Part shown: positions 20 to 14,555 of the stretch, in pieces | Layout of the letters: every line of letters begins with the position of its first letter | How positions within the stretch are numbered: the stretch's first letter is position 1 | IMG/VR virus record: IMGVR_UViG_3300045275_000010 | Coordinates: 1 to 23,503 of that record | Source of the DNA: a virus | Length of the DNA: 23,503 nucleotides | Reading direction: 5' to 3' (one strand) | The notes under the pieces: model-generated | Told to the model about the DNA's origin: nothing | Database searches by the model: none | Seen by the model: the letters and a program-made list of their open reading frames with translations, nothing else | Position numbers and translations under genes: made by a program

Positions 20-790
20 TTAGAGGCGGTTTATCGTGCCGACGTTGCCGAACTTCTCCTTCTGCGCTGCGGCGTACTCGCGGTTGTCCTTGGCGATCTT
101 GCCCTGGGCGTTGCCAGCCAAGGCATTGGCGCCAACATTGACCAGCGCCGCCGTCGTCCTGTCGCCGAGACCGTTGAGCAATCCGGTGAGTTTGCTACCG
201 CCGGTATTCAACCCGCTGCCTCCGGAAGGCTGTGAAGAAGACGCATCGGAAGATGGCGACGCCCCACCGAGCGACGTATCGGGAACGGACGTGCTCAGCG
301 ACGTGCTGGGCGGCGTCAGCAACAGCGACGTGCTGGGCGGCGTCAGCAACAGGCCGGACTCGCCGTTGGCGATGGCCGGAGCGAACTGTGCATTCGACGC
401 CGCGGCAGCCTCGGCAGAGGCAAACGGCGCCGCCGGTGCGGACGTCGGAAGCGTGGAAGTGCCGCCCATCAACTCCAGACCGGACATGACGCCATTTGAG
501 CCACTGGCCGGCAGCATGCCCTCGACGCCCGTCACGCTGCCGGTCGCCGCATCTACCGCGCCGGCCGTGCTCGCCGCCGTCTCGGCACCGCCGAGCGCGC
601 CGCTCAGGCCGCTACCGATCGCGCCGCCGAGGCCGCCGAGCAGCGCGCCCTTGAGCACGTCTCCGCCGGTCACGGCAGACGCAATGGCGCCGATCACGGC
701 CCCCGTCACGACGGCCTCGACCGTCACTGACCCGACGAAAGCCGCCACCGCCGCGGCGACAGGCCCCTCATATGTGTGCTTCACGCGCAT
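20..790 (-). CDS. Glycine/alanine-rich putative internal virion (DNA-ejection) protein
   Basis: This 256-residue protein has an Ala/Gly-rich hydrophobic segment at about residues 11-70, with GAVIGAIASAV and GGLGGAIGSGLSGALGG resembling glycine zippers. A Ser/Pro/Thr-rich middle follows, then a more ordered C-terminus from about residue 205 ending KFGNVGTINRL. Glycine-zipper membrane segments are common in small ejection proteins of short-tailed phages, and the gene closes the visible late operon beside another putative ejection protein; the role is inferred. Residues 147-164 are a perfect duplication of LLLTPPSTS, encoded by a 27-bp tandem repeat. The ATG start at 790 has AAGGAGCCAAGCG upstream and overlaps the end of the GNAT-like gene by 23 bases. 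Confidence 0.6.
   Translation of the reverse strand: MRVKHTYEGPVAAAVAAFVGSVTVEAVVTGAVIGAIASAVTGGDVLKGALLGGLGGAIGSGLSGALGGAETAASTAGAVDAATGSVTGVEGMLPASGSNGVMSGLELMGGTSTLPTSAPAAPFASAEAAAASNAQFAPAIANGESGLLLTPPSTSLLLTPPSTSLSTSVPDTSLGGASPSSDASSSQPSGGSGLNTGGSKLTGLLNGLGDRTTAALVNVGANALAGNAQGKIAKDNREYAAAQKEKFGNVGTINRL
298..351 (-). repeat. Perfect 27-bp tandem duplication inside a virion gene
   Basis: Two identical 27-base units occupy 298-324 and 325-351. They are in frame and duplicate nine residues, LLLTPPSTS, in the Ser/Pro-rich part of the putative ejection protein. The two copies do not differ at any base, so the duplication is either recent or kept uniform by slippage. Confidence 0.9.
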
Positions 791-1172
791 CGCTTGGCTC
801 CTTCACGTAAATGGTGTGTCCATCCGCCCCACGATAGGGCTTGAATCCCAGCCGATCGGCGAGCGCATGCGCCTCCCGGCGTTCGCATGCGATCACCGCA
901 TAGACCGGACACTGCGGCTTCCAGTCCGGATAGGCTTTCAGCATCGCCTTGGAAATCCAGCGTCCGTGCCACTCCGGTAGCACGCCGATGTGGATCAGCA
1001 CCTGCCCGGTTTCGACCTGGTGCAAGAGCACCATGCCGACGTAGCGGCCATCCCTGGAGATCGGCCAAAGCACGGCATCTCTGAAATCCGTCAGCCACTT
1101 GTCGCGCGGCCCCACAGGAAGCCCGGCCCCCCAGAAGATTCGGTAGGCGTCGAGCAGCGTTGCGGCGCGCAT
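768..1172 (-). CDS. GNAT-like acetyltransferase-fold phage protein
   Basis: The product is 134 residues if started at the ATG at 1172, which overlaps the stop of the upstream gene as TGATG. A longer reading would start at 1313, but it lies wholly over the upstream gene and is rejected. The sequence has a GNAT-like outline: a strand at YVGMVLLHQVETGQVLIHIGV, then a basic turn and helix at PEWHGRWISKAMLKAYPDW, then a strand at VYAVIACERREAHALADRLGFKPY, the usual C-terminal GNAT pattern of helix followed by LGF. Proteins of this fold are common in short-tailed phage late operons, where their substrates are unknown. The fold call is by eye and no acetyl-acceptor can be named. Confidence 0.55.
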   Translation of the reverse strand: MRAATLLDAYRIFWGAGLPVGPRDKWLTDFRDAVLWPISRDGRYVGMVLLHQVETGQVLIHIGVLPEWHGRWISKAMLKAYPDWKPQCPVYAVIACERREAHALADRLGFKPYRGADGHTIYVKEPSDAREAHI

Positions 1173-2728
1173 CAGTCGCCAGTTACAGGACCAGACAGCA
1201 GCAGGCCGGGTTCGTCTTTTTCTCCGGTCAGCAAGCCGGTGTCGGCCTTCGGCGTCGCGCCGATCGACGTAGCGCCGGTGGTGCCGAGAATTTCTGGGAG
1301 CATGACCTTCCATTCGTTCTGCCAGCCGACCATGTTGTCGAAAGCGTCGTTGGTCAGGTCGATCTGGTTCTGCAGCGAAACCTCGTACTGCCCGATCGCG
1401 GCGGTCTTCTGCTCCGCCGTCATGTTGGCGTTGTTCTGGATGTTCGTGATGGCGTTGCTGTAGTTCGCCGTGATGTTGTTGATCGCCTCGCGGTAATTCT
1501 GCTGCAGCAGGTTGGCGTTTTCCCTGTCGATGCGACCGTTCGCGACGTCCTGATCGATCTGCGTCTGGTACGCCTTGAGCTCGGCATTCACGCGCGCGCT
1601 CTGCAGGCTGTACTGCTGCTGCTGATAGGTAGAGGCAAACTGGTTGTTGGCGTCGACGTTCGCCCGGCGGTTGTTGTAATACTTCTCGGCATCCGGGCCG
1701 GCGATCTCGATGGCCTTCGATGTCGCCGCCTCGATGGCGGCCTGCTGCGCCATGCTCGAATTCAACAGGCCGCGGCGCGCGAATGCCGCCAGCGCGCGGT
1801 CTGCCGCCTGGCGCACCACGGCGTTGGTGTAGTTACCGCTGGCATCCGTTCCAAGCAGGTTCTGGATGCGGCCCTCGATGGTCTCGCTGCCGGCGTCGAC
1901 CCGGCTGGTCAGATCCGGCTGGTACTCGGCGCCGGCCGGCGTGGTGCCGGGGACGATGTTCGGCGGTTTCGGATTAACCCGTTCGAGATACGGCGCGTAC
2001 AGTTCCTGGAACTGCCCCTCGGCCAGGCCGAGGGATGCGACCATGGCATCCCAGGCGGACCGCTCTTCCTGCGGCGTCTTGTAGGTCGTGCCGGTGTAGG
2101 CGTTGTAGGCGTCGCGGGTTTTCGTCAGGCTGGGGGCGTAGGCGTTGTCGCTGTAGAGCGTGCTCTGCATCCAGTCGTCGAACGACTGCGCGCCGGCGGT
2201 GCCCCTGATGTTCGTGTCGTAGTAATTCCGGTAGCTGTCGTACATGTCGAGCCCGCTTGTCTGCGAGCCGGCCAGCGAGTTGAGCGTACCGACTTCCGTC
2301 TTCGGCGGCGACAGCAGCAGGCCGGAATCCGGGCTGGCCGAGTACGGCAGCGAGGAATTCGGGTTGTCCGACGTCGCCGAAGTCGTTCCGGCGTTGTTCA
2401 GGATCTGCAGCGCATGATCGGCATTCATCAGCGATGATGGATGGCTTCCAGACGAAGACGATGATCCAGGGGAACCGGAGGACGACGAACTGGTATAGCC
2501 AGCCGCCGCGTTCTGAGCCGCCTTGCCGGCGCTCGCCGTGTTGGTCATGGTGCCAGTCACGGAACCAGTAGGAATCGGCCCGGTGCCCAGCCCTTGGGTT
2601 GTCGACGTGGTGCTACCGACCGAGGCGCTGGAGTCTGTTCTGACGCCAGAAACCGGGCCGCCGTCGAGCGTGTTGGACGCCTTCGCGCCGCCGGGCGCAT
2701 ACGGGTTTTTAATCGTGACTGTCGTCAT
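1172..2728 (-). CDS. Large helical putative internal virion (ejection) protein
   Basis: The ATG at 2728 is preceded by CTGGAGCCAAAC, a clear ribosome binding site, and gives 518 residues. An extension to 2863 would add 45 Arg/Cys-rich residues with no coding character. The first 130 residues are Ser/Thr/Gly-rich with a poly-Ser tract near 80-93. From about residue 145 the protein becomes mixed and then strongly helical: about residues 300-490 are rich in Ala, Asn, Gln and Glu (for example QQNYREAINNITANYSNAI) and look like long helices or coiled coil. It carries GLLLSPPKT at 136-144 and GLLLSGPVTGD at its C-terminus, related to the repeat in the glycine-rich protein two genes on. Late position, size and helical composition suggest an internal or ejection protein. 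This is inference. Confidence 0.55.
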   Translation of the reverse strand: MTTVTIKNPYAPGGAKASNTLDGGPVSGVRTDSSASVGSTTSTTQGLGTGPIPTGSVTGTMTNTASAGKAAQNAAAGYTSSSSSGSPGSSSSSGSHPSSLMNADHALQILNNAGTTSATSDNPNSSLPYSASPDSGLLLSPPKTEVGTLNSLAGSQTSGLDMYDSYRNYYDTNIRGTAGAQSFDDWMQSTLYSDNAYAPSLTKTRDAYNAYTGTTYKTPQEERSAWDAMVASLGLAEGQFQELYAPYLERVNPKPPNIVPGTTPAGAEYQPDLTSRVDAGSETIEGRIQNLLGTDASGNYTNAVVRQAADRALAAFARRGLLNSSMAQQAAIEAATSKAIEIAGPDAEKYYNNRRANVDANNQFASTYQQQQYSLQSARVNAELKAYQTQIDQDVANGRIDRENANLLQQNYREAINNITANYSNAITNIQNNANMTAEQKTAAIGQYEVSLQNQIDLTNDAFDNMVGWQNEWKVMLPEILGTTGATSIGATPKADTGLLTGEKDEPGLLLSGPVTGD

Positions 2729-3369: not shown

Positions 3370-4068
3370 TCATAGTTCAAATGGCGCGGAGGGCGGGGTG
3401 AAGTTGGCCGTGTAGCGCGCAACACCTTTGGTCAGGCGGACTTCGTCCATGTAGCCTTTGAGCTGGTCGGCAACCGTGGAACTGGTTTTTTCTGCGCAGA
3501 GAATCAACGTCGTCAGCACGAATTCGGCCGTGTTAGACCACTCTGCAACCTTTGACCCATCGACGAACATTCGGCATGTGCTGCCGGAGCGCGTGAACGC
3601 ATAGTGCTGCCAGGCGGTGGCGACGATCCCAGCCGACGCCGGCGTCATCGAAAACTGTTGCCCGCCATTGACCGCGTACATCTGAAAGAAGCCGCCGTTA
3701 TCAATGCGCACGAGCAGCCCGCCAGACCATGGGCCGATCATGACATGACCATTACCAGTTCCAATATCAGAGTGGTACGCACACCACTCCAAAGTGAAGT
3801 TACCAGTCAAACTCCCATCGGTGCCTAGTGCCACTGACAGGTAGTATCCTGTCGTCGTCGCCGGGTTGTACGCGCTCGCCGTCCCGAACTTCTTCTGCCC
3901 CGTCTTGGTAACGATTCCGCTCCGCGTTACTGTGTGGCCTTTTTCGTCAGTGAACGTAGCGCCATCGTCTGAGCCGTCCATATGCATGAGCAGGACGACA
4001 TTCGCGGCGTATGGATCAGTCGCACCAGCGCATACCCCGAATCCACTTAGCTGATTGACGTTAAGCAT
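3370..4068 (-). CDS. LamG/concanavalin A-like lectin-domain protein, likely receptor-binding
   Basis: From the ATG at 4068 the protein has 232 residues. After a short lead (MLNVNQLSGFGVCAG) almost the whole length is one LamG-like (laminin G_3) jelly-roll domain. Signature pieces are VVLLMHMDGSDDG near the start, the FTLEWCAYHSD strand, WQHYAFTRSGSTCRMFVDG, and the closing GYMDEVRLTKGVARYT with FTPPSAPF. Such domains bind sugars or proteins and are widespread in phage tail-tip and fibre proteins. The gene overlaps the fibre gene by eight bases, so the two are probably translated together and may form one adsorption device. An alternative ATG lies 12 bases upstream; neither has a strong ribosome binding site, as expected for a coupled start. 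Confidence 0.75.
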   Translation of the reverse strand: MLNVNQLSGFGVCAGATDPYAANVVLLMHMDGSDDGATFTDEKGHTVTRSGIVTKTGQKKFGTASAYNPATTTGYYLSVALGTDGSLTGNFTLEWCAYHSDIGTGNGHVMIGPWSGGLLVRIDNGGFFQMYAVNGGQQFSMTPASAGIVATAWQHYAFTRSGSTCRMFVDGSKVAEWSNTAEFVLTTLILCAEKTSSTVADQLKGYMDEVRLTKGVARYTANFTPPSAPFEL

Positions 4069-5473
4069 CGTTCGCCGCATCCGTCGTGTAGATGACCACC
4101 ACGCCATGCAGGCGCGCGTCGCCGGCCAGCGTGTCGCTGCCGTTGACGGCATCCCGATAGACCTGGAAAACCACCCAATCTCCAGCGGCCGGAGTGCCGG
4201 CGATGGTGATGGCGCTCGTCTCGGCGGTCTGCATCAGATCGCCCTGCGCGGTTTGCGCATCGGTGACGGTCTGCGCCGTGCCGAATGCGGCGTCGAGTGC
4301 ATCGTCGTCGGAGAGCGCGACGGCTTGCAGCCCCCACACCACGGCGTTGGTGCCGCTGATCGCCGATGACCAGAGTAAATAGGCGGTGACGGCGCTCTCG
4401 TTCCAGCCCTTCGGCATGCGGATGGCGAACTGCGCGTACTCGGCTGCCGCCGCGTCGAAGTCGAGCGTCTGCAGCATCACCTTGTTGGTGGTCGTCTCGA
4501 CGGTGCCGGATGCCGCGCCACTGGTGGTGCGCGCCTTCATGGCGCCGGCCGGAATCCAGATGGTTTGCTTGCCGCGCTGCGCAAGCGAAGACGCCGTCAA
4601 GTCCTCATCGACCGTCAGCGTCTTCGGCGTCGTTCCGCCGGTCGCCGTGAATCCGGTCGTCTGCGGCGTGATGCCCGTGCCTGTGTTTCCGGTGCGCGCA
4701 AAGCTCACAAACGCCAGCGTTGCGTTACTGAATGCGCCGCTGCCGGCAACGTAGGAAACCGCCAGCTCTGTCCAGCCGGCGTTGTCAGTCAGGCCGGACA
4801 CGGCGAACACTGCGAAGCTCGCGCCCTGGCGAATCGTCAGCATGCCCTTGTTGGCGCTGGTCGAGTCATCCCATGTGGCAACGAACGCCGACACGTCCTG
4901 GCTGGCGCTGTTGAGGTCATCCAAGGCAATCGCCGTGACGCTCGCAAGCGTGGCATTGTTAAAGCGCATGGCCCCACTGCCGGGGTCGGCCATCGTGGTT
5001 GTGGCGCTGAAGTTCCAGCCAATGAGCTGCGACGCCACCGCCGTAACATCGGAGGCGACGCCCGCCACCGCCGTAATGTTCGCGTTGTTGCCCGCCACCG
5101 CCGTGACGTTTGCATTGTTGCCCGCCACTGCCGTGATGTTTGCGTTATTCCCCGCCACCGTAGTAATGTTGCTGGCATTGCTGGCGACCGCCGCAACATC
5201 GGCCGCAATGCCGCTGACGGTTGCCACGTCGGCAATCGTATATGGCGTTTCCGGCGCTCCTGTTGTGGCGTTGAATGTCAGCACCTTTCCCTTGCGCGCC
5301 GACGCGGCCGGGATTGCTGAATTTGACTCTCCGTCCGGGCCTTTGATCGCCGCATCTGTTTTCGTCTCGACACCAGAAAAGCCGGCTGCAACCTCGTCGA
5401 AAACCGCGTTCGCGTCCTCGGCGCGCACGGTATCGAAGCGGATGAACCTGCTAAGGTGGGTAAAAAAGCTCAT
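4061..5473 (-). CDS. Tail fibre protein with ten-residue AVAGNNAN(I/V)T repeats
   Basis: The protein has 470 residues. The N-terminus (MSFFTHLSRFIRF, then DANAVFDEVAAGF) looks like a short virion-attachment segment. Residues about 83-148 are a run of ten-residue repeats related to VAGNNANITA, a pattern seen in trimeric phage fibre shafts. The remaining 320 residues are beta-rich with many Thr, Ser and Ala and two similar subregions ending in value-like strands (GDWVVFQVYRDAVNGSD), compatible with a fibre body or head domain. The ATG at 5473 overlaps the stop of the large tail gene as ATGA. Fibre function is inferred from repeat style and its place between the tail nozzle-like gene and the LamG gene. 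Confidence 0.7.
   Translation of the reverse strand: MSFFTHLSRFIRFDTVRAEDANAVFDEVAAGFSGVETKTDAAIKGPDGESNSAIPAASARKGKVLTFNATTGAPETPYTIADVATVSGIAADVAAVASNASNITTVAGNNANITAVAGNNANVTAVAGNNANITAVAGVASDVTAVASQLIGWNFSATTTMADPGSGAMRFNNATLASVTAIALDDLNSASQDVSAFVATWDDSTSANKGMLTIRQGASFAVFAVSGLTDNAGWTELAVSYVAGSGAFSNATLAFVSFARTGNTGTGITPQTTGFTATGGTTPKTLTVDEDLTASSLAQRGKQTIWIPAGAMKARTTSGAASGTVETTTNKVMLQTLDFDAAAAEYAQFAIRMPKGWNESAVTAYLLWSSAISGTNAVVWGLQAVALSDDDALDAAFGTAQTVTDAQTAQGDLMQTAETSAITIAGTPAAGDWVVFQVYRDAVNGSDTLAGDARLHGVVVIYTTDAANDA
5030..5227 (-). repeat. 30-bp repeats encoding the fibre shaft
   Basis: Roughly six imperfect 30-base units encode decapeptides of the form VAGNNANITA or VASNASNITT. Copies differ mainly at silent positions in the centre of the array (NNANI, NNANV, NNANI), which points to an old in-frame expansion under protein-level constraint. 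Confidence 0.85.
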
Positions 5474-7839
5474 CTGCGCATCCCTCGCATCGAGTATTGA
5501 ATAAGAAGCCCTTGGAGCGTGAATGGATCGTCGAACCCGCTTTCGTGCAGGATGATGACGCCCATGTTCTTGCCGACGCCGTCGATGTTTTCCTCGACGC
5601 TAGAATGCGCCGGCGCCGACCAGCGCACGGTGTTCCATGCGGATTCGTTGAAGATGCCGCCTGCGCCGATCACGGTTTTGTCGAAGACGATCGAGGCCGG
5701 GTAGTCGCCGTCCGCGTAGTCGAACAGCAGTCGGAACTGAAAAACGATATCGTTGTCCGCCTCGATCTCGAACGCGATCTTGCGGAACCGCTTGTTGATC
5801 GCCGGGCTCTTGAAGGCGTTGAACGGCAGCGCGACAGCGGAAAGAATCTCGCCGCCGTCAAAACTCGTCCCGGAGTCCTCCTGCATCACCCAGCCGTCCG
5901 TCGTGCCGAACATATGCACGTCGGTCCCGTTGGCATCCTTGCCGGTGAAGAAGCAGTACGGAATATGATCGTAGGCAAACCTCGAGAACTCGACGACGCC
6001 CTCGTTTGCATCAGTCCTCGGCCGCGTCCAGCACGCCGTGATCCCGGTTCCGTCGTCGAAGTAGATGCGGTACTGGTTCTTGCCGTTGATGAGGCGACAG
6101 GCGACGATGTTGTCCAGCCTTGGATCGAGGATGCGCTTGACAGACTCCGAGACGATGGCCGGCTCGAAGCCGCCGTAGCGCTGCGACGTCGATAGCGTCT
6201 CCACGCCCTTGTCGGACACGTAGATCACCGTCGCCACGGAATCTGCCACCGTGAAGCGCTTGGCGCCGACAGACTGGCTAAAGTCGGTTCGCTCCCAGTC
6301 CGTGATGCCGGTTCCCGTCAGCAGCTGAATCGTGCGATTCCCGAAGATCGCCAACTGTCCGCCAACCATGCTCTGCAGGTTCGTGATCTCGTCTCCGGTG
6401 GCGATCAGGCTTGCCGTCGACGTGTGGGTCAGCGGGTCGCCTTGGTTCGAGTGCTGCAGTTGTCCGTCCGGATAGACGAGGAACAGATGCAACTTGAAGG
6501 CGGAAACCTCGTAGGGCAAGTCGCTGAAGTCGGCTAGGCCGATCTCCCAGTCATAGACGGTTCCGCTGCCAGTCGTAGCCGTGACGTTGAGTGTCAGCGC
6601 GCTACCGGAATACGCCGTCACCGTTCCGGTCATCGTCTTGCCCATGTCGCTCGAACTGCGCGCAACCAGCGCGGTGCCGATCGTCCAGTCGCGCGCCGCT
6701 TCGAGAACCGCAAACGACTTGCTGCCTGTGCCGATGGCAAGCGATGTGCCAGAGCATGCCGTCGATCCCCAAATCTGCCCTGACGGGATATGGCTGAAGC
6801 GCCAATCGGTACGGGCCGTCGCTCCGCTGGCCGTTGCGACACTCATTTCCAGCGTGTCGGTGACATCGTCGTAGCTGACGACGGTTCCGCTCATGTAGTC
6901 GCCGATGTTGGCCGCCGACCAGGCATAACACGGCGTGCCCGGAATGAAGTCGCGGCCGTTCTCGGTGATCGTGAAGGTCTTCGAACCCGTGGCAGGCGTC
7001 ATGCTGGTGGCGCTCGACGCGATCACCGTTGCCCCGATAGGTAGGTAGCGCACGCCATCCAGCTTGAAGGGACGATTCGTTCCGCTGACGCCATACAGCG
7101 ACAAATCACTGCTGGCACCTTCGTAATTCGACTCGATGATGCGATAGGTTCCGCCGGCGGCAAGGCCGGTCCTGAAGCTCACCCATCCGGAAGCCGTGGC
7201 TTTCCAGATCGTCGCCGACGTGCCGGCGACGACATCGCGGATTGCATACGTAATTCCATTGAGGATCGCGACGCCGCGCACCGGGCCGGACCCGGGAGGC
7301 TTGCCGATCTTGGCGCGCTGCGACTCCCTGGCCAGCGCAAGGTTCAGCGCGTAGTCGGCGTCACCAATGGTGCCGATAACCGCATCATCCGCGGCCGTCG
7401 CATGCGTCACGCCGCCGACCTGCAGGGCGTCGTTGTTTGAAAACGTTCCGGTGACGTTCATCAGCACCAGATCGCCGACGGCGTTTGACCCGGCCCAGGT
7501 TCCGCTGCTGACCGTCACCCAGACAACCTCGCCGCTGGCGGTTGGGCCGGTCACGATATCTCCGATGCTGATGGCGATGCTTCCAGCGTCGAAAGCCAGC
7601 GTCTGGTAGGCCACGGATGACGGATAGGTCCGGCCGTCGTAGCGCTCGTAGCCGTCGACGCGCCGGTAGCCGTCTCGGCCATAGACGATCTCGAAGTTCT
7701 GGCAACGCAACATCCTGCCGGGCTTGATGTTGAGCGGACTCGAATTCGTGTCGATGCCGCCGCTCAGCGGGACATAGACGAACGACTGATCGATCTTCCC
7801 GGCGGGAACATGCGGACGCTTCGCCGGAACGGCTCTCAT
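5470..7839 (-). CDS. Large tail protein, nozzle-like (T7 gp12-like position)
   Basis: At 789 residues this is the longest protein of the window. It begins with a basic stretch and then FVYVPLSGGIDTNSSPLNI, followed by a GR..RCQNFEIVYGRDGYRRVDGYER motif. A 'GG(I/V).....P.....G....NFE....G...R.GYER' opening is typical of large beta-rich tail nozzle or stopper proteins in short-tailed phages. The rest is almost entirely beta-strand-like with repeated Ala/Thr/Gly strands (for example SATSMTPATGSKTFTI and GSKSFAVLEAARDWTIGTALV), suggesting repeated beta domains. It is coupled (ATGA) to the adaptor gene upstream, the same pair order as T7 gp11-gp12. The assignment is structural analogy, not recognised identity. 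Confidence 0.6.
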   Translation of the reverse strand: MRAVPAKRPHVPAGKIDQSFVYVPLSGGIDTNSSPLNIKPGRMLRCQNFEIVYGRDGYRRVDGYERYDGRTYPSSVAYQTLAFDAGSIAISIGDIVTGPTASGEVVWVTVSSGTWAGSNAVGDLVLMNVTGTFSNNDALQVGGVTHATAADDAVIGTIGDADYALNLALARESQRAKIGKPPGSGPVRGVAILNGITYAIRDVVAGTSATIWKATASGWVSFRTGLAAGGTYRIIESNYEGASSDLSLYGVSGTNRPFKLDGVRYLPIGATVIASSATSMTPATGSKTFTITENGRDFIPGTPCYAWSAANIGDYMSGTVVSYDDVTDTLEMSVATASGATARTDWRFSHIPSGQIWGSTACSGTSLAIGTGSKSFAVLEAARDWTIGTALVARSSSDMGKTMTGTVTAYSGSALTLNVTATTGSGTVYDWEIGLADFSDLPYEVSAFKLHLFLVYPDGQLQHSNQGDPLTHTSTASLIATGDEITNLQSMVGGQLAIFGNRTIQLLTGTGITDWERTDFSQSVGAKRFTVADSVATVIYVSDKGVETLSTSQRYGGFEPAIVSESVKRILDPRLDNIVACRLINGKNQYRIYFDDGTGITACWTRPRTDANEGVVEFSRFAYDHIPYCFFTGKDANGTDVHMFGTTDGWVMQEDSGTSFDGGEILSAVALPFNAFKSPAINKRFRKIAFEIEADNDIVFQFRLLFDYADGDYPASIVFDKTVIGAGGIFNESAWNTVRWSAPAHSSVEENIDGVGKNMGVIILHESGFDDPFTLQGLLIQYSMRGMRR

Positions 7840-8525
7840 TCCGGCCTCACGACAAGCATGCCCGGGTCGGCCATACGCCGTCCATTCTGGTTCGGCAGGT
7901 ACTTCGCTTCGAGCTTGTCGAGCAGGTCGTCGAACTCGATCTGTGCGGACACCATGATGTCAGTGGCGCCCTGGTCCTCGGCGAACATCATCTTGGCGCG
8001 CGCGATGATGATGCGCTCGTACTCCTCTGGGATCGGCGACGTGTCGCCGTTGGCCGTCATCTTGACCGGGCGCTTCCAGTAGTCGGCCGTCAGCAGGTAG
8101 GCGCCATCCGGCGGTGCCTCCAGCTTCAAGGAAAGATCAGGCAGGATGACTACGCTATCCGGTCGCTGATTGGTCTTCACACCTTGGCGGTAGTTCTTGC
8201 GCCAGTCCTTGTAGTCGAGGACCTTCAGCTTCTTGTTGCTCGCCGTGTTGTAGCCCAGGTAAAACGAGTCTTCGTCCCATGTGCCGATCATCGCCGGCGC
8301 CGCGACGGATGCCTCACCGATTGATGTCGTCGCGTTCCATGTCGAGACGTGCAGGAAGTCCCAGTCGAACCACCGGCTTTGCGTCTCGTGGTCGGCATCA
8401 GCAACCCAGGCGACGATCTTTTCGAGAAGGCCGATCTGGTTGGTGACGGCCACCGGGCCGGTTCCCTGGACCCCGCACGCCCGGCGCGTCGCCTGGCACA
8501 GCTGCAGGAACGTGGATTTCGCCAC
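7836..8525 (-). CDS. Head-tail adaptor-like protein
   Basis: This 229-residue protein starts at a GTG at 8525, immediately after the TAA of the preceding gene (TAAGTG). It opens MAKSTFLQLCQATRRACGV, a helix typical of phage adaptor and tail-tubular-A-type proteins. A central part with W-rich segments (SRWFDWDFLHVSTW, DYKDWRKNY) and a C-terminal helical part (YERIIIARAKMMFAEDQGA, then EFDDLLDKLEAKYLP) follow. Adaptors join the portal ring to the tail nozzle, and the gene lies between capsid genes and the nozzle-like gene with an ATGA overlap to the latter. Only an AGG-like ribosome binding site is seen, so translation is probably coupled. Confidence 0.6.
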   Translation of the reverse strand: MAKSTFLQLCQATRRACGVQGTGPVAVTNQIGLLEKIVAWVADADHETQSRWFDWDFLHVSTWNATTSIGEASVAAPAMIGTWDEDSFYLGYNTASNKKLKVLDYKDWRKNYRQGVKTNQRPDSVVILPDLSLKLEAPPDGAYLLTADYWKRPVKMTANGDTSPIPEEYERIIIARAKMMFAEDQGATDIMVSAQIEFDDLLDKLEAKYLPNQNGRRMADPGMLVVRPE

Positions 8526-10628: not shown

Positions 10629-11675
10629 TTATTCGAGCCCGCGCTGCTTGCGCAGGTCCGAAACGTATTGACTGCGGGATTGAGGCGGTGGCGCCGGACG
10701 ATTCGCCGCGCGCGCCGATCCACCTCGGATAGTGGTTTGCGAACGCTTTGCATCCAGCTTTTCAGTCGTGCTGGAAGTAGGCGCTGCAGTTCTCCCGCCA
10801 ATCCAGTTGCGAACACGGGTCGCGGCTTCGTCGATGATCTTCGCGGGCGACCAATCGGGGTGCTCGCGCTGGACCTCTTTCGTTTTGCGATCCGTCATCA
10901 CAAGGAGTTCGGGGTCTTCGGCAATGTCCGGGTAGTCGGATGCAAAGCTGTCGCGCTTCTCAAGGCGCTCGCGCTCGAACACCTGAAAGCGCTTCTGATG
11001 CTCATTGCGCTCGATTTCCTGTCTTGCCTTCTCGGCAGCCTTGCTCGCGATCTCGTCGGCGTCAGGGGTAGCGGATGAATTCCGCGCCGCCTGCATCTTC
11101 ACGAGAAGGTCGTCGGCGGCATCCATATCGCCGTCGGCCAGAGCCTCGTGATACCTGCGAGCCAAGTCCTTCATCGCGCCCGCATCTTCGGGTGGCGATG
11201 CCGCGGGCCGCTGCTGAGCCCGCTGTCGTTGAATTTCTTCTTCCTGCTGATGCAATTGTTGGGCGCGAGCATTGATCTGCGCCTCGAGTTCGTTGGCTTG
11301 ACGCATCTTCGCGCTCGCCTGATTGAGAAGTTCGGATGCCGCAGCGTTCTTCTGATAGGCGTCGACGCCGCCTGCCGCTTCTACCTTGGCGCGAGGAACG
11401 CGGCGTTCCTTGCCGTTCACCTTGACGGTGATCTCTTCGTCCTGTGGCCGTTCTTCCTCAGGCGGCTTAACCTCTTCCTCGTCGGCATGAGCAGAACCGT
11501 CGATCTCTTGCCGGCGAAGCTCGGCATGCCTGGCATAGATTGCGGCGCGCGGATCGTTCGGGTCGATCTGCGTCTCGTCTTCGGGCTTCGCGCCGCCAAT
11601 GTCGAGCGGTTCCTGCTTTGCCTCGACCTGAACGCCGGCTTCGTCGTTATCGATGGTGGTCTGCTCTTGCGTCAT
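10629..11675 (-). CDS. Scaffolding protein
   Basis: This 348-residue, very charged protein directly precedes the major capsid gene. The first 110 residues are strongly acidic (for example EEEVKPPEEERPQDEE). The next 100 form Gln/Glu/Ala-rich helices or coiled coil (ELEAQINARAQQLHQQEEE, QRQRAQQRP), followed by more helix to about residue 290. The basic C-terminus (GSARAANRPAPPPQSRSQ, YVSDLRKQRGLE) would suit binding to capsid subunits, as in P22-type scaffolds. The ATG at 11675 has AAGGAGCAGGCA before it. No protease motif is present, so it looks like a simple scaffold rather than a protease-scaffold fusion. Confidence 0.8.
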   Translation of the reverse strand: MTQEQTTIDNDEAGVQVEAKQEPLDIGGAKPEDETQIDPNDPRAAIYARHAELRRQEIDGSAHADEEEVKPPEEERPQDEEITVKVNGKERRVPRAKVEAAGGVDAYQKNAAASELLNQASAKMRQANELEAQINARAQQLHQQEEEIQRQRAQQRPAASPPEDAGAMKDLARRYHEALADGDMDAADDLLVKMQAARNSSATPDADEIASKAAEKARQEIERNEHQKRFQVFERERLEKRDSFASDYPDIAEDPELLVMTDRKTKEVQREHPDWSPAKIIDEAATRVRNWIGGRTAAPTSSTTEKLDAKRSQTTIRGGSARAANRPAPPPQSRSQYVSDLRKQRGLE

Positions 11676-12058: not shown

Positions 12059-12378
12059 TTCGCTTCAAGCATAAGTTGCGACAGCATGTAGCAGAACGGC
12101 TCTCCATTTGCTGCTCGCGGGTCGATGTCTGCAAGCTCGAACACATGCAGAATGACATGCGAAAGCTCATGCGCTAGATAGCTGCGGTTCTTCGCCCATA
12201 CAACATAAATCGGACAACGCGTTTTCTCATCGTACTTCCCGGACATGCGCCCGTTCTTGCCTTCAGTGAGAGCAGAATCATTCTCGCCAAAAAGCTTCTT
12301 GTATTCTCGCTGATACTCAGAATGAGTGACGCAGACTTTTACCGTTCCAAAGTACGGGCGCAGAGAAAGCGTCTTCAT
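12055..12378 (-). CDS. Small putative zinc metallopeptidase (HExxH)
   Basis: This 107-residue protein carries HELSH at residues 70-74 in the helix YLAHELSHVILHVFE, a classic HExxH zinc site with hydrophobic neighbours. A glutamate at about residue 93 (NGEPFCYMLSQL) is placed where gluzincin-type enzymes have their third zinc ligand. An upstream strand CPIYVVWAKNRS fits the edge strand of a minimal zincin fold. The gene is coupled by ATGA overlaps to the portal gene before it and the helical gene after it, the place where a head maturation protease often lies. Whether it cleaves capsid parts, other virion proteins or host targets cannot be told from sequence. Confidence 0.65.
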   Translation of the reverse strand: MKTLSLRPYFGTVKVCVTHSEYQREYKKLFGENDSALTEGKNGRMSGKYDEKTRCPIYVVWAKNRSYLAHELSHVILHVFELADIDPRAANGEPFCYMLSQLMLEAK

Positions 12379-14555
12379 CTCTGAAATGCCTCACCAGCCG
12401 GCGCCCTGCCCTGCGGCTCCATTGCCGGCAGCGCTACCTGCTGGACCTGGCGCGCGCCGATCGACAGTTCGCGCTGCGTGCGCAGCTTCATGGCGTCGCG
12501 CATGATCGCCGCCTTGATGGTCTGGAATGCAGTCCTCTCTTCTGCGGTGAGCTTCGCGCCTTCGAGTTGTGCCTCAACCTGCGCGATCGACTGCTGCAGC
12601 ATGCGGTCGAGCTCATTGTCCTGCATCTCGGCGTCAAGCTCCATCTTCGTCCTGATGGTCTCGCCTTTCTGGCGAATCGTCTCGACGGCCTTGCGGCCCT
12701 CGACCTCGAGTTGTCGATTTCCGAGTTCTTGCTGGAGCTTCTGGATCATCTGCTGCATCTGCGCGATGCGCGGGTCTTCGCCCTGCTGACCGAGTTGCGG
12801 GAAGAAGCGTTCGGCACCCTTGTAGCCGAGCGCGCCGAATACTTCTGTCGCCATCTCCTTGGTGTCCAGGCCCTGCAACAGGCCCGGGGCGAAGCCGGCG
12901 ACTGTCTTCATGCCGAGCGCCAGGCGCTCGATGCGTTTCTGCGGATTCGTGGCGCCGAAACCGACGTTCACGTTCACCGTCACCATTCCCTGCAACATGG
13001 CATCGGTCACGCGATCGATGCCGAATTTCTGGAGCAGCTGCGCACGCTGACCGGCGACGGCCAGGACAATCTCGTCCGTCTCGTAGGCTTGCTCCATGCG
13101 GACGAGTTGCTTCAGCACCGGCTCGACCCATGTCTCGGCGAATACCCGCAGCTGGTATTCGGTCATCACGTTGGAGTCGTTCGATAGCATTTCCATGCCG
13201 CCGACCGTCTCGTTCAACTGGCGGTTCGACTGCACAGATCCAGGCGAGAAAGTACCGGCCAGCTCGTCGTAGTCCAGGCTCACGCGGTCCTGTTCGGCGT
13301 AGGCCGATCCCGTCACATCGCCCGGTGCGTCCCAGCGTATGTCGGCGTTGATGTCGTCCACCAGCGTCACGGAACCCGGCACGTTCCGCGTCAGGCTGCG
13401 GTAGTCGATGTTTGCCGTGCGCTTGGCGAAATAGCGCTTATTCATGGCCAGCGCGACGTTGTCGCGGCGCTGGTTGCCGACGTCGTTCGCCTCTTCCTGC
13501 AGTGTTGCCGTGAGCTCGTTGAGGCCGGGAGGAATCGGCTTGTGAGCCTCAAGCACGGCGAAGCCCATCACATAGGGACGCTCCTTCGGCCGCAGATGAC
13601 GGTACTCATGGCGCAGCAGCACAGGATCGGAAAGCCGCAGGTCTGTTCCCAGCGTGTAGAAAATCCAGTCCTCGCCGTCCTGACGAATGATGTTGCGATG
13701 CACGAAAACAGTGTCGAAATCCGCAGTGGCGTGCGTGACGTCCATGCTGTCCTGACGCTTCTTGCCGTCGCGCGCCGCACGAATCGTGTCGTACTGATTC
13801 GCGCCGGCTTGCTGAATCTCGCCGTCGCTGTACTCGATCCACTTGCCGTCGGCCATCTTCTCCTTGATATCGCCGATAAACATCGGAATCAACTCGATGA
13901 CGTAGGGCGTCGTTCCCATCGGATCGGCCCAGTCGGCCGCCGGCGAGATGCGCAGGTTCTCGATCGCCACCAGATCGATGCGCGGCTTGTCGCTGACGAT
14001 GCGGCCGACCTCGCGAACCGCCGGCTGCCCTGCCTCGGTCAGAATCGAGTTTCCGTTTTCGTCGATCAGCGGATATTCGTCGGTGCGCTCTTCGAATTCC
14101 CATGTCTGGTGCGACACGACGACGCCGACGTTGAGCGCGTTCTGGTAGGCGCCGATCACGGTCAGGAACCACGGAATCGAGTCGTCGAGGCGATAGTTCA
14201 GCAACTCGGACAGCACGGCGGCCGACACCACCTGGCTCTTGTCGTTGCTGTTCTCGGCAGTGACGGATACCATGTCCGACGTGCTGAAGAACGCCACGGC
14301 CGCCGCAGCTTCGTTGCGACGTATCGTCGCGCGTGTCTTCGGACGAAACCCCTTGGCGCGGAACTTGTAGCTGTCCGAGTAATACTTGCTGCCTGGAGCA
14401 TGGCGGTTCGAGAAATGCGCCAACGCCTTCTCGATGGATGGACGCAGGCTGGCATCGAACCAGTCTGACGACTGCACGTATGCGTCGCGCGCCATCGTCA
14501 GCCAGGCGTCGTCCTGTGGCTCCGCGACCTGGTTGGCGACTTGCGGTTCGTTCAT
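12375..14555 (-). CDS. Portal protein, P22-like size
   Basis: Starting at the ATG at 14555, one base after the upstream stop, the product has 726 residues, almost the size of P22 portal. The N-terminal part has the usual portal helices and stem-clip pattern (ASLRPSIEKALAHFSNRH, IRRNEAAAAVAFFSTSDM, then WFLTVIGAYQNALNVGVVV). The DPVLLRHEYRHLRPKERPYV segment and PIPPGLNELTATLQEEANDV match the central body of P22-type portals, where a helix lines the channel. About residues 580-700 are Gln/Glu/Lys-rich coiled coil (IAQMQQMIQKLQQELGNRQ), like the C-terminal barrel helices. Portal forms the dodecameric DNA-entry ring with TerL and the adaptor. A longer start at 14681 is rejected because it overlaps the previous gene. 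Confidence 0.85.
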   Translation of the reverse strand: MNEPQVANQVAEPQDDAWLTMARDAYVQSSDWFDASLRPSIEKALAHFSNRHAPGSKYYSDSYKFRAKGFRPKTRATIRRNEAAAAVAFFSTSDMVSVTAENSNDKSQVVSAAVLSELLNYRLDDSIPWFLTVIGAYQNALNVGVVVSHQTWEFEERTDEYPLIDENGNSILTEAGQPAVREVGRIVSDKPRIDLVAIENLRISPAADWADPMGTTPYVIELIPMFIGDIKEKMADGKWIEYSDGEIQQAGANQYDTIRAARDGKKRQDSMDVTHATADFDTVFVHRNIIRQDGEDWIFYTLGTDLRLSDPVLLRHEYRHLRPKERPYVMGFAVLEAHKPIPPGLNELTATLQEEANDVGNQRRDNVALAMNKRYFAKRTANIDYRSLTRNVPGSVTLVDDINADIRWDAPGDVTGSAYAEQDRVSLDYDELAGTFSPGSVQSNRQLNETVGGMEMLSNDSNVMTEYQLRVFAETWVEPVLKQLVRMEQAYETDEIVLAVAGQRAQLLQKFGIDRVTDAMLQGMVTVNVNVGFGATNPQKRIERLALGMKTVAGFAPGLLQGLDTKEMATEVFGALGYKGAERFFPQLGQQGEDPRIAQMQQMIQKLQQELGNRQLEVEGRKAVETIRQKGETIRTKMELDAEMQDNELDRMLQQSIAQVEAQLEGAKLTAEERTAFQTIKAAIMRDAMKLRTQRELSIGARQVQQVALPAMEPQGRAPAGEAFQR

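Follow-up and report, generated by a model that had tools for sequence, protein, structure and literature searches.

A GL[LI] motif in putative ejection proteins of SU10-type podoviruses with a B-type protein: a candidate docking signal

IMG/VR record IMGVR_UViG_3300045275_000010 (the complete record of 23,503 bases; hereafter the window), a fragment of a phage genome, encodes two proteins, designated A and B, that share a short peptide motif with the core GL[LI] (Gly-Leu followed by Leu or Ile). Judged by gene position and relatives, A and B are probably ejection proteins of a podovirus. The motif occurs in disordered parts and at the ends of neighbouring proteins, at a frequency beyond that given by composition, as is typical of a short linear motif, and that it is under selection is well supported. 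On balance, we consider it probable that GL[LI] is the docking motif of those SU10-type podovirus ejection cassettes that carry a B-type protein, and that its copies are read by a common partner.

Motif copies in proteins A and B

The sequence-only reading from which the analysis started had proposed a motif GLLL(S/T)PP common to the two proteins. Translation bears this out: A contains NGESGLLLTPPSTSLLLTPPSTSLSTS, including the motif stretch GLLLTPPSTSLLLTPPSTS, and B contains GLLLSPPKT (Gly136, in the context SGLLLSPPKT) and terminates in PGLLLSGPVTGD (Gly508), the claimed GLLLSGPVTGD end. The perfect 27-bp duplication described for A was recovered (period 27, 100% matches), its second motif copy lacking the leading Gly, and B indeed lies two genes upstream of A in the gene order B, GNAT, A. 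Three copies had been missed, namely RGLLNSSM (Gly320) and GLLTG (Gly498) in B and GLLNG (Gly203) in A. In total, B has four GLL (136, 320, 498, 508); A has two (146, 203) and, in addition, the repeat copy that lacks Gly.

B and A were each shuffled 20,000 times, A after removal of one repeat unit. GLLL[ST]PP never arose in both proteins (0/20,000); at least two GLLL in B were obtained in 2 shuffles and at least three GLL in B in 20. GLLL in A alone was reached in 567 shuffles, and some 5-mer common to these two low-complexity proteins in 6,430. Because shuffles often give shared 5-mers, a shared short word alone is weak evidence. The 774 residues of A and B contain six GL[LI] versus five in the 5,366 residues of 18 other window proteins. 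The motif as proposed is thus shared beyond shuffle expectation, but its core is GL[LI], of which GLLL(S/T)PP is the variant of this genome.

In the AlphaFold2 model of B, the copies at 136, 498 and 508 lie in segments with a predicted local distance difference test score (pLDDT) below 50 (residues 1-158 except residue 97, and 481-518), and the Gly320 copy lies in a confident loop joining two helices. The model of A, which is poor (mean pLDDT 55), places the copies at 146-164 within a stretch lacking secondary structure (61-199) and Gly203 in a short helix (200-207). The location first claimed for the motif, disordered parts of neighbouring proteins, therefore fits 136, 498, 508 and 146-164, though not the copy in the folded loop or that in the helix. 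A short motif shared by such parts and by protein ends is supported and is general to the cassette.

Family and fold searches gave no assignment. Neither A nor B matched a Pfam or PHROGs family at E up to 0.001, and the conserved domain of B matched no PHROGs family at E up to 1. For the fold of B, Foldseek returned no PDB match at E up to 0.001, the best being 9k2v_a, a chain of a cyanophage pre-ejectosome, with E 0.32 and a probability of 0.07; the best VIA-align score, Z 9.2 on a helical bundle, was below the meaningful level.

Relatives and the excess of GLL

Direct searches for A in phages, viral contigs and 16 records found no relative, and its placement in cassette slot d2 therefore relies on gene order together with a weak alignment, in which its identity to 26 relatives is 15-30% (26 of 40 candidates were used). 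Whole B matched one phage record and one viral contig. Its conserved domain recovered at least 28 viral and 23 genome loci, with phage MW202426 at least 52 loci; the sample of 52 consists of the viral matches listed, the genome loci and MW202426. As the pattern RGLLNSSM had itself helped to find some of the relatives, this core of B was masked in the counts. The core is exact in 44 of the 52 loci, represented by close variants in six and not found in two. The alignment of B comprised the window and 43 of the 52 loci; L041 (folding rule), L069 and L086 (length) and six near-duplicates were left out.

The usual layout is B, a GNAT-like protein of ~145 residues or a protein of ~100 residues (d1), an A-like glycine-rich protein (d2), d3 of ~190 residues, d4 of ~330 residues and a giant protein. 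A protein of more than 1,000 residues ends the cassette in 31 of 52 loci; the window record ends past A, before any d3, d4 or giant. The one giant tested has matches to families of virion RNA polymerases, endolysins, minor head proteins and DarB-like proteins, and nine small cassette proteins of L077 and L089 matched no PHROGs family. The presence of a GNAT gene inside a putative ejection cassette is an observation in its own right: the Pfam GNAT family scored above its cut-off in three of nine d1 proteins tested. A profile from the window GNAT gene recognised just three d1 proteins; some GNAT proteins therefore remain in the d1 set, where they should dilute the motif signal.

The motif is kept in relatives. 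Among the nearest relatives of the window, B carries a copy 13 residues from the end (L045), two copies, 25 and 12 residues from it (L069), a copy at residue 43 together with a GML variant 11 residues from the end (L073), GLLFSAP at residue 54 (MW202426) or the core only (L046). In the B protein of L069 (G005), with 979 residues, imperfect helical repeats such as MGVQQGYDVAKMGIDQQN also form a long array.

For the enrichment counts, 269 cassette and 363 upstream proteins were reduced to 201 and 281 by removal at 40% identity, with the window itself excluded. In a ranking for which no motif was picked beforehand, GLL is the top tripeptide in the 155 non-redundant B and d1-d4 proteins (96 versus 21.8 expected, in 66 proteins) and GLI the second of all tripeptides (43 versus 11.4). 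GLL is first in the viral subset (54 versus 13.0) as well as in the genome subset (42 versus 8.7), and it stays first without B (80 versus 17.1). It is restricted to the cassette: in upstream proteins of the same loci GLL shows no excess (36 versus 41.1). Observed and shuffled counts are 16 and 4.7 in masked B, 14 and 4.1 in d1, 31 and 5.8 in d2, 12 and 2.6 in d3, 23 and 4.6 in d4, and 10 and 4.0 in later small proteins; they are 33 and 23.7 in the giant and 24 and 28.7 in upstream proteins of less than 700 residues. Ranked by copies, GLL is first in d1, d2 and d4, 11th in d3, 39th in masked B and 540th in the giant, and between 216th and 4,495th in eight upstream slots; ranked by number of proteins it is first in d4, second in d2 and fourth in d3. 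GL[LI] occurs in 71 of the 117 proteins other than B and the giant in 31 complete cassettes (shuffles 21.0, maximum 30).

A Leu/Pro/Ser-rich composition does not explain the motif, as both shuffles and tripeptide ranks go beyond composition. Over B and d1-d4, the words of the same composition, LGL (21) and LLG (49), are rarer than GLL, and the excess is specific for Gly, with 165 G[LI][LI] versus 41 A[LI][LI] and 36 S[LI][LI]. A motif at the DNA level was rejected, the 122 in-frame GLL being written by 74 different 9-mers and the +1 and +2 frames yielding 23 and 9. The antisense frame in register gives 91 GLL, a count that we assume to stem from Gln/Glu/Lys-rich sense codons.

Motif form and candidate partners

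The 139 GL[LI] copies outside the B core prefer Gly or Lys before the motif, Ser, Asn or Gly at +3 and Ser or Gln at +4; position +6 is occupied by Met 18 times versus 4.4 expected. The nearly invariant B core RGLLNSSM fits these preferences and probably represents the same motif, as a fixed copy within a folded domain. Thirty of the 139 copies lie within 15 residues of the N-terminus (8.0 expected) and 25 within 20 residues of the C-terminus (10.7 expected). The extended pattern GL[LI]..[GAS][ML], picked after inspection of the contexts, occurs 27 times versus 1.2 by shuffle (maximum 5), and once upstream.

In tests that included the window, the flanks at +3 to +7 of copies in different proteins were more alike within than between genomes. 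The difference was 1.24, the permutation null being 0.07 with a standard deviation of 0.30, and it was reached in 0 of 500 permutations; random positions and random glycines in the same proteins each reached the likeness in 0 of 200 trials. When the 39 pairs of proteins from one genome that gave any blastp hit at E<10 were dropped, the difference was 0.95, reached in 3 of 500 permutations. The likeness is weaker at -4 to -1 (5 of 500) and not present at +3 alone (53 of 500). Such likeness fits a shared reader that differs between genomes.

GLL could instead be a by-product of Gly- and Leu-rich helices (glycine zippers) and of distant homology within the cassette, with no shared partner, an explanation that we regard as unlikely. 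It would suit the predicted helix around Gly203 of A, the raised LLG count and those d2 and d4 copies that lie in hydrophobic glycine-rich stretches. The flanks, however, are hydrophilic in 92 of 165 G[LI][LI] versus 36 of 82 [LI][LI]G, GLL leads by copies in three slots of unlike proteins, the extended pattern is in excess, even if that pattern was chosen with the contexts in view, and the within-genome likeness survives the removal of similar protein pairs.

Copies also stand in tandem, 5 to 13 residues apart, in several proteins (L051, L055, L064, L069 and window B at 498/508). The change in copy number to which the duplication in A had been taken to hint is plausible in view of the tandem copies in L051, L055 and L069, but no strain variants of the window repeat were found, the viral contigs containing no exact match to a 21-base flank. 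Tandem copies would also fit GLL peptides that act as stickers and join the ejection proteins to one another without a separate receptor, and genome-specific flanks would follow as well. The conserved polar residues at +3 and +4 and Met at +6 suggest a shaped pocket instead, and the B copy in a folded loop also speaks against self-association, which we hold to be unlikely.

DnaK-like chaperones prefer Leu-rich peptides, and the motif might bind a host chaperone or be cut by a host or phage protease, which would keep or make the proteins ready for ejection. Leu-rich extended peptides in disordered segments would be apt for this purpose, and a host protease removes 20 residues from the N-terminus of P22 gp7, as stated in its sequence record. 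The requirement for Gly, with ALL and SLL words not raised, argues against a generic chaperone site, and the end positions of the copies argue against a cleavage site, which would make little sense at residues 2-5 or within 10 residues of the end. The flanks vary with the phage genome, though different hosts could also cause this. A host-factor site is an improbable explanation.

In the docking model, each small protein of the cassette (B, the ~100-residue protein or a neighbour, the A-like protein, d3 and d4) would display at least one copy close to a terminus or within a disordered stretch, often in the form GL[LI]xx[GAS][ML] and in the window genome as GLLL[ST]PP. One partner encoded by the same genome would read all copies, such that the proteins would be collected as the head is assembled and could leave it in order at ejection. 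Candidate partners are the giant last protein, the portal, the capsid or another virion protein. The giant would suit the role of a hub: of all cassette members it shows the weakest excess, and its position is always the last.

Mimicry of the scaffold C-terminus was considered as a general rule, the window scaffold ending in KQRGLE and those of L017 and L019 in MKRDRGLLVD and MREARGLPV. It was ruled out: 14 of 31 distinct candidate ends have RG in the last 12 residues, yet most loci with a GLL cassette end otherwise (L077, FDHYAAKKAAR). The two kinds of scaffold C-terminus among the loci argue against the scaffold end as the receptor. The C-terminus RKQRGLE of the candidate scaffold at 10629-11675 resembles the RGL-type ends in L009, L013, L014, L017, L018 and L019 and is perhaps a capsid-binding end.

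Several points weigh against the docking model. Counted by proteins, GLL is just 15th in d1 and 28th in masked B, and LLG is itself somewhat raised (49 versus 21.8). Four of the 31 complete cassettes have no copy outside B, although in one of them no other small protein was called. The slots hold distant homologues, especially at the N-termini of d3 and d4, so that copies within a slot are not independent. Some copies in d2 and d4 lie in hydrophobic glycine-rich helices and may be structural; 29 of 165 G[LI][LI] have hydrophobic flanks. SU10 gp20-24, proven ejection proteins, have two GL[LI] in 2,956 residues, so that ejection as such does not require the motif. Finally, the common partner is postulated from sequence and is hypothetical.

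In a bolder version of the docking model, which we put forward as tentative and rather doubtful, a whole podovirus lineage would address its injected proteins by one code word. Each small ejection protein would bear GL[LI] tags, all of them fitting one pocket of the virion, on the giant, the portal or the capsid, and tag and pocket would drift together in each genome. The tags would be the phage equivalent of encapsulin cargo-loading peptides. Small tandem duplications, of which the 27-bp repeat is an example, would adjust copy number, and the giant may use a second set of separate tandem tags at its N-terminus. The first 110 residues of giants often contain lineage-specific tandem short repeats (L048, L054, L068, L071, L075, L076, L078, L092, L093 and others), for example GLFDDLP/GLFDDIP, TDWSQFTPI/IDWSQFEPI, PTLETWLPQ/PTLQSWLPQ and twice GYRFVGGDP. 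In 10 of 31 giants the repeats surpass each of 40 shuffles; among these ten, L050 is just proline-rich. These repeats are possibly a second docking tag.

Known systems and gene layout of the window

The late genes of the window lie on the minus strand in the order terminase, SU10-type portal, scaffold, major head protein, SU10-type adaptor, a 789-residue protein in the nozzle position, fibre-like genes, B, GNAT and A, and the record stops just past A (Table 1). By its portal and adaptor families the window phage is assigned an SU10-type podovirus head and tail. The same families occur in relatives (PF23899 in L046 with 85.5 and in MW202426 with 53.7 bits; PF24175 in L061 with 67.2 bits). Genes were called mechanically as the longest open reading frames per strand, with doubtful starts. 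The genes for gp20-24 of SU10 (Kuravirus), whose portal and adaptor belong to the same families, occupy the same place, after the nozzle and tail genes. SU10 gp20-24 are reported to be in the virion, to be lost at genome release and to have no resolved density in the head (PMC9509320).

PTXU04, Bas95 and Vibrio phage D279 have a related portal and the same layout, with a B-like protein, a ~100-residue protein, further proteins and a large last protein. Their B core is not RGLLNSSM but RGMGNSSM, RGLGNSSM and RGLGNTTL, respectively, and their small proteins contain GL[LI] once in 1,492 residues (PTXU04), 0 times in 1,486 (Bas95) and 0 times in 1,172 (D279); the last protein of D279 has two, one being GLLNSS. 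From these three phages with an RG[ML]GN[ST][ST] core, few as they are, the core and the outlying copies seem to go together. Podovirus genes for head or internal proteins are found in the same position in P22 (gp14/gp7/gp20/gp16) and BPP-1 (bbp10-12); with three GL[LI] in 1,460 and one in 3,003 residues, respectively, they lack the pattern of the window cassette.

Encapsulin cargo-loading peptides and T4 capsid targeting sequences are short peptides at protein termini through which cargo enters an HK97-type shell, and the definition of an encapsulin-type cargo-loading peptide includes binding to the interior face of a shell protein with the HK97 fold. The cassette motif is unlike these peptides in that it occurs in several copies on several proteins, is also internal and has a different sequence. 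Targeting peptides are known, whereas GLL and its presence across an entire ejection cassette are apparently undescribed: no description of the motif was found in searches of open-licence papers or in passages of PMC8954989, PMC10386132, PMC11440229 and PMC9509320. Podovirus ejection proteins are reported to diverge fast and to be often unresolved in structures (PMC8954989, PMC9509320). How such unlike, partly disordered proteins are gathered and in which order they exit is poorly understood. If the docking model is correct, the shared tag predicts a single receptor, would let ejection proteins that escape family searches be recognised by sequence and could serve to bring foreign proteins into phage heads.

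Table 1. Features of the window, in window coordinates
Positions	Strand	Feature	Basis
20..790	-	Protein A, 256 residues, glycine-rich, cassette slot d2	Open reading frame, gene order, weak alignment
164..184	-	A residues 203-209, GLLNGLG, further GLL in short predicted helix, possibly structural	Model, motif scan
296..352	.	Perfect 27-bp tandem duplication, 2.1 copies, 100% matches	Repeat search
299..355	-	A residues 146-164, GLLLTPPSTSLLLTPPSTS, one full motif and one Gly-less copy	Translation
768..1172	-	GNAT-type acetyltransferase between B and A, without GL[LI]	PF00583, 27.5 bits (cut-off 20.7)
1172..2728	-	Protein B, 518 residues: disordered 1-158, helical core ~265-480, disordered tail 481-518	Open reading frame, AlphaFold2
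1175..1207	-	B residues 508-518, GLLLSGPVTGD, C-terminal end	Translation, AlphaFold2
1223..1237	-	B residues 498-502, GLLTG, disordered tail	Motif scan, AlphaFold2
1634..1903	-	B residues 276-365, conserved domain, query for relatives	Alignment
1751..1774	-	B residues 319-326, RGLLNSSM (Gly320), loop between helices 303-317 and 325-396	Alignment, AlphaFold2
2297..2323	-	B residues 136-144, GLLLSPPKT, disordered N-terminal part	Translation, AlphaFold2
7836..8525	-	SU10-type adaptor (context)	PF24175, 43.6 bits (cut-off 27)
12375..14552 (start codon provisional)	-	SU10-type portal (context; possible motif receptor)	PF23899, 97.2 bits (cut-off 30)

Elsewhere in the window, the gene at 4061-5473 contains a 30-bp tandem repeat (5060-5170; 3.7 copies, 83% matches) that encodes repeated AGNNANITAV-like units.

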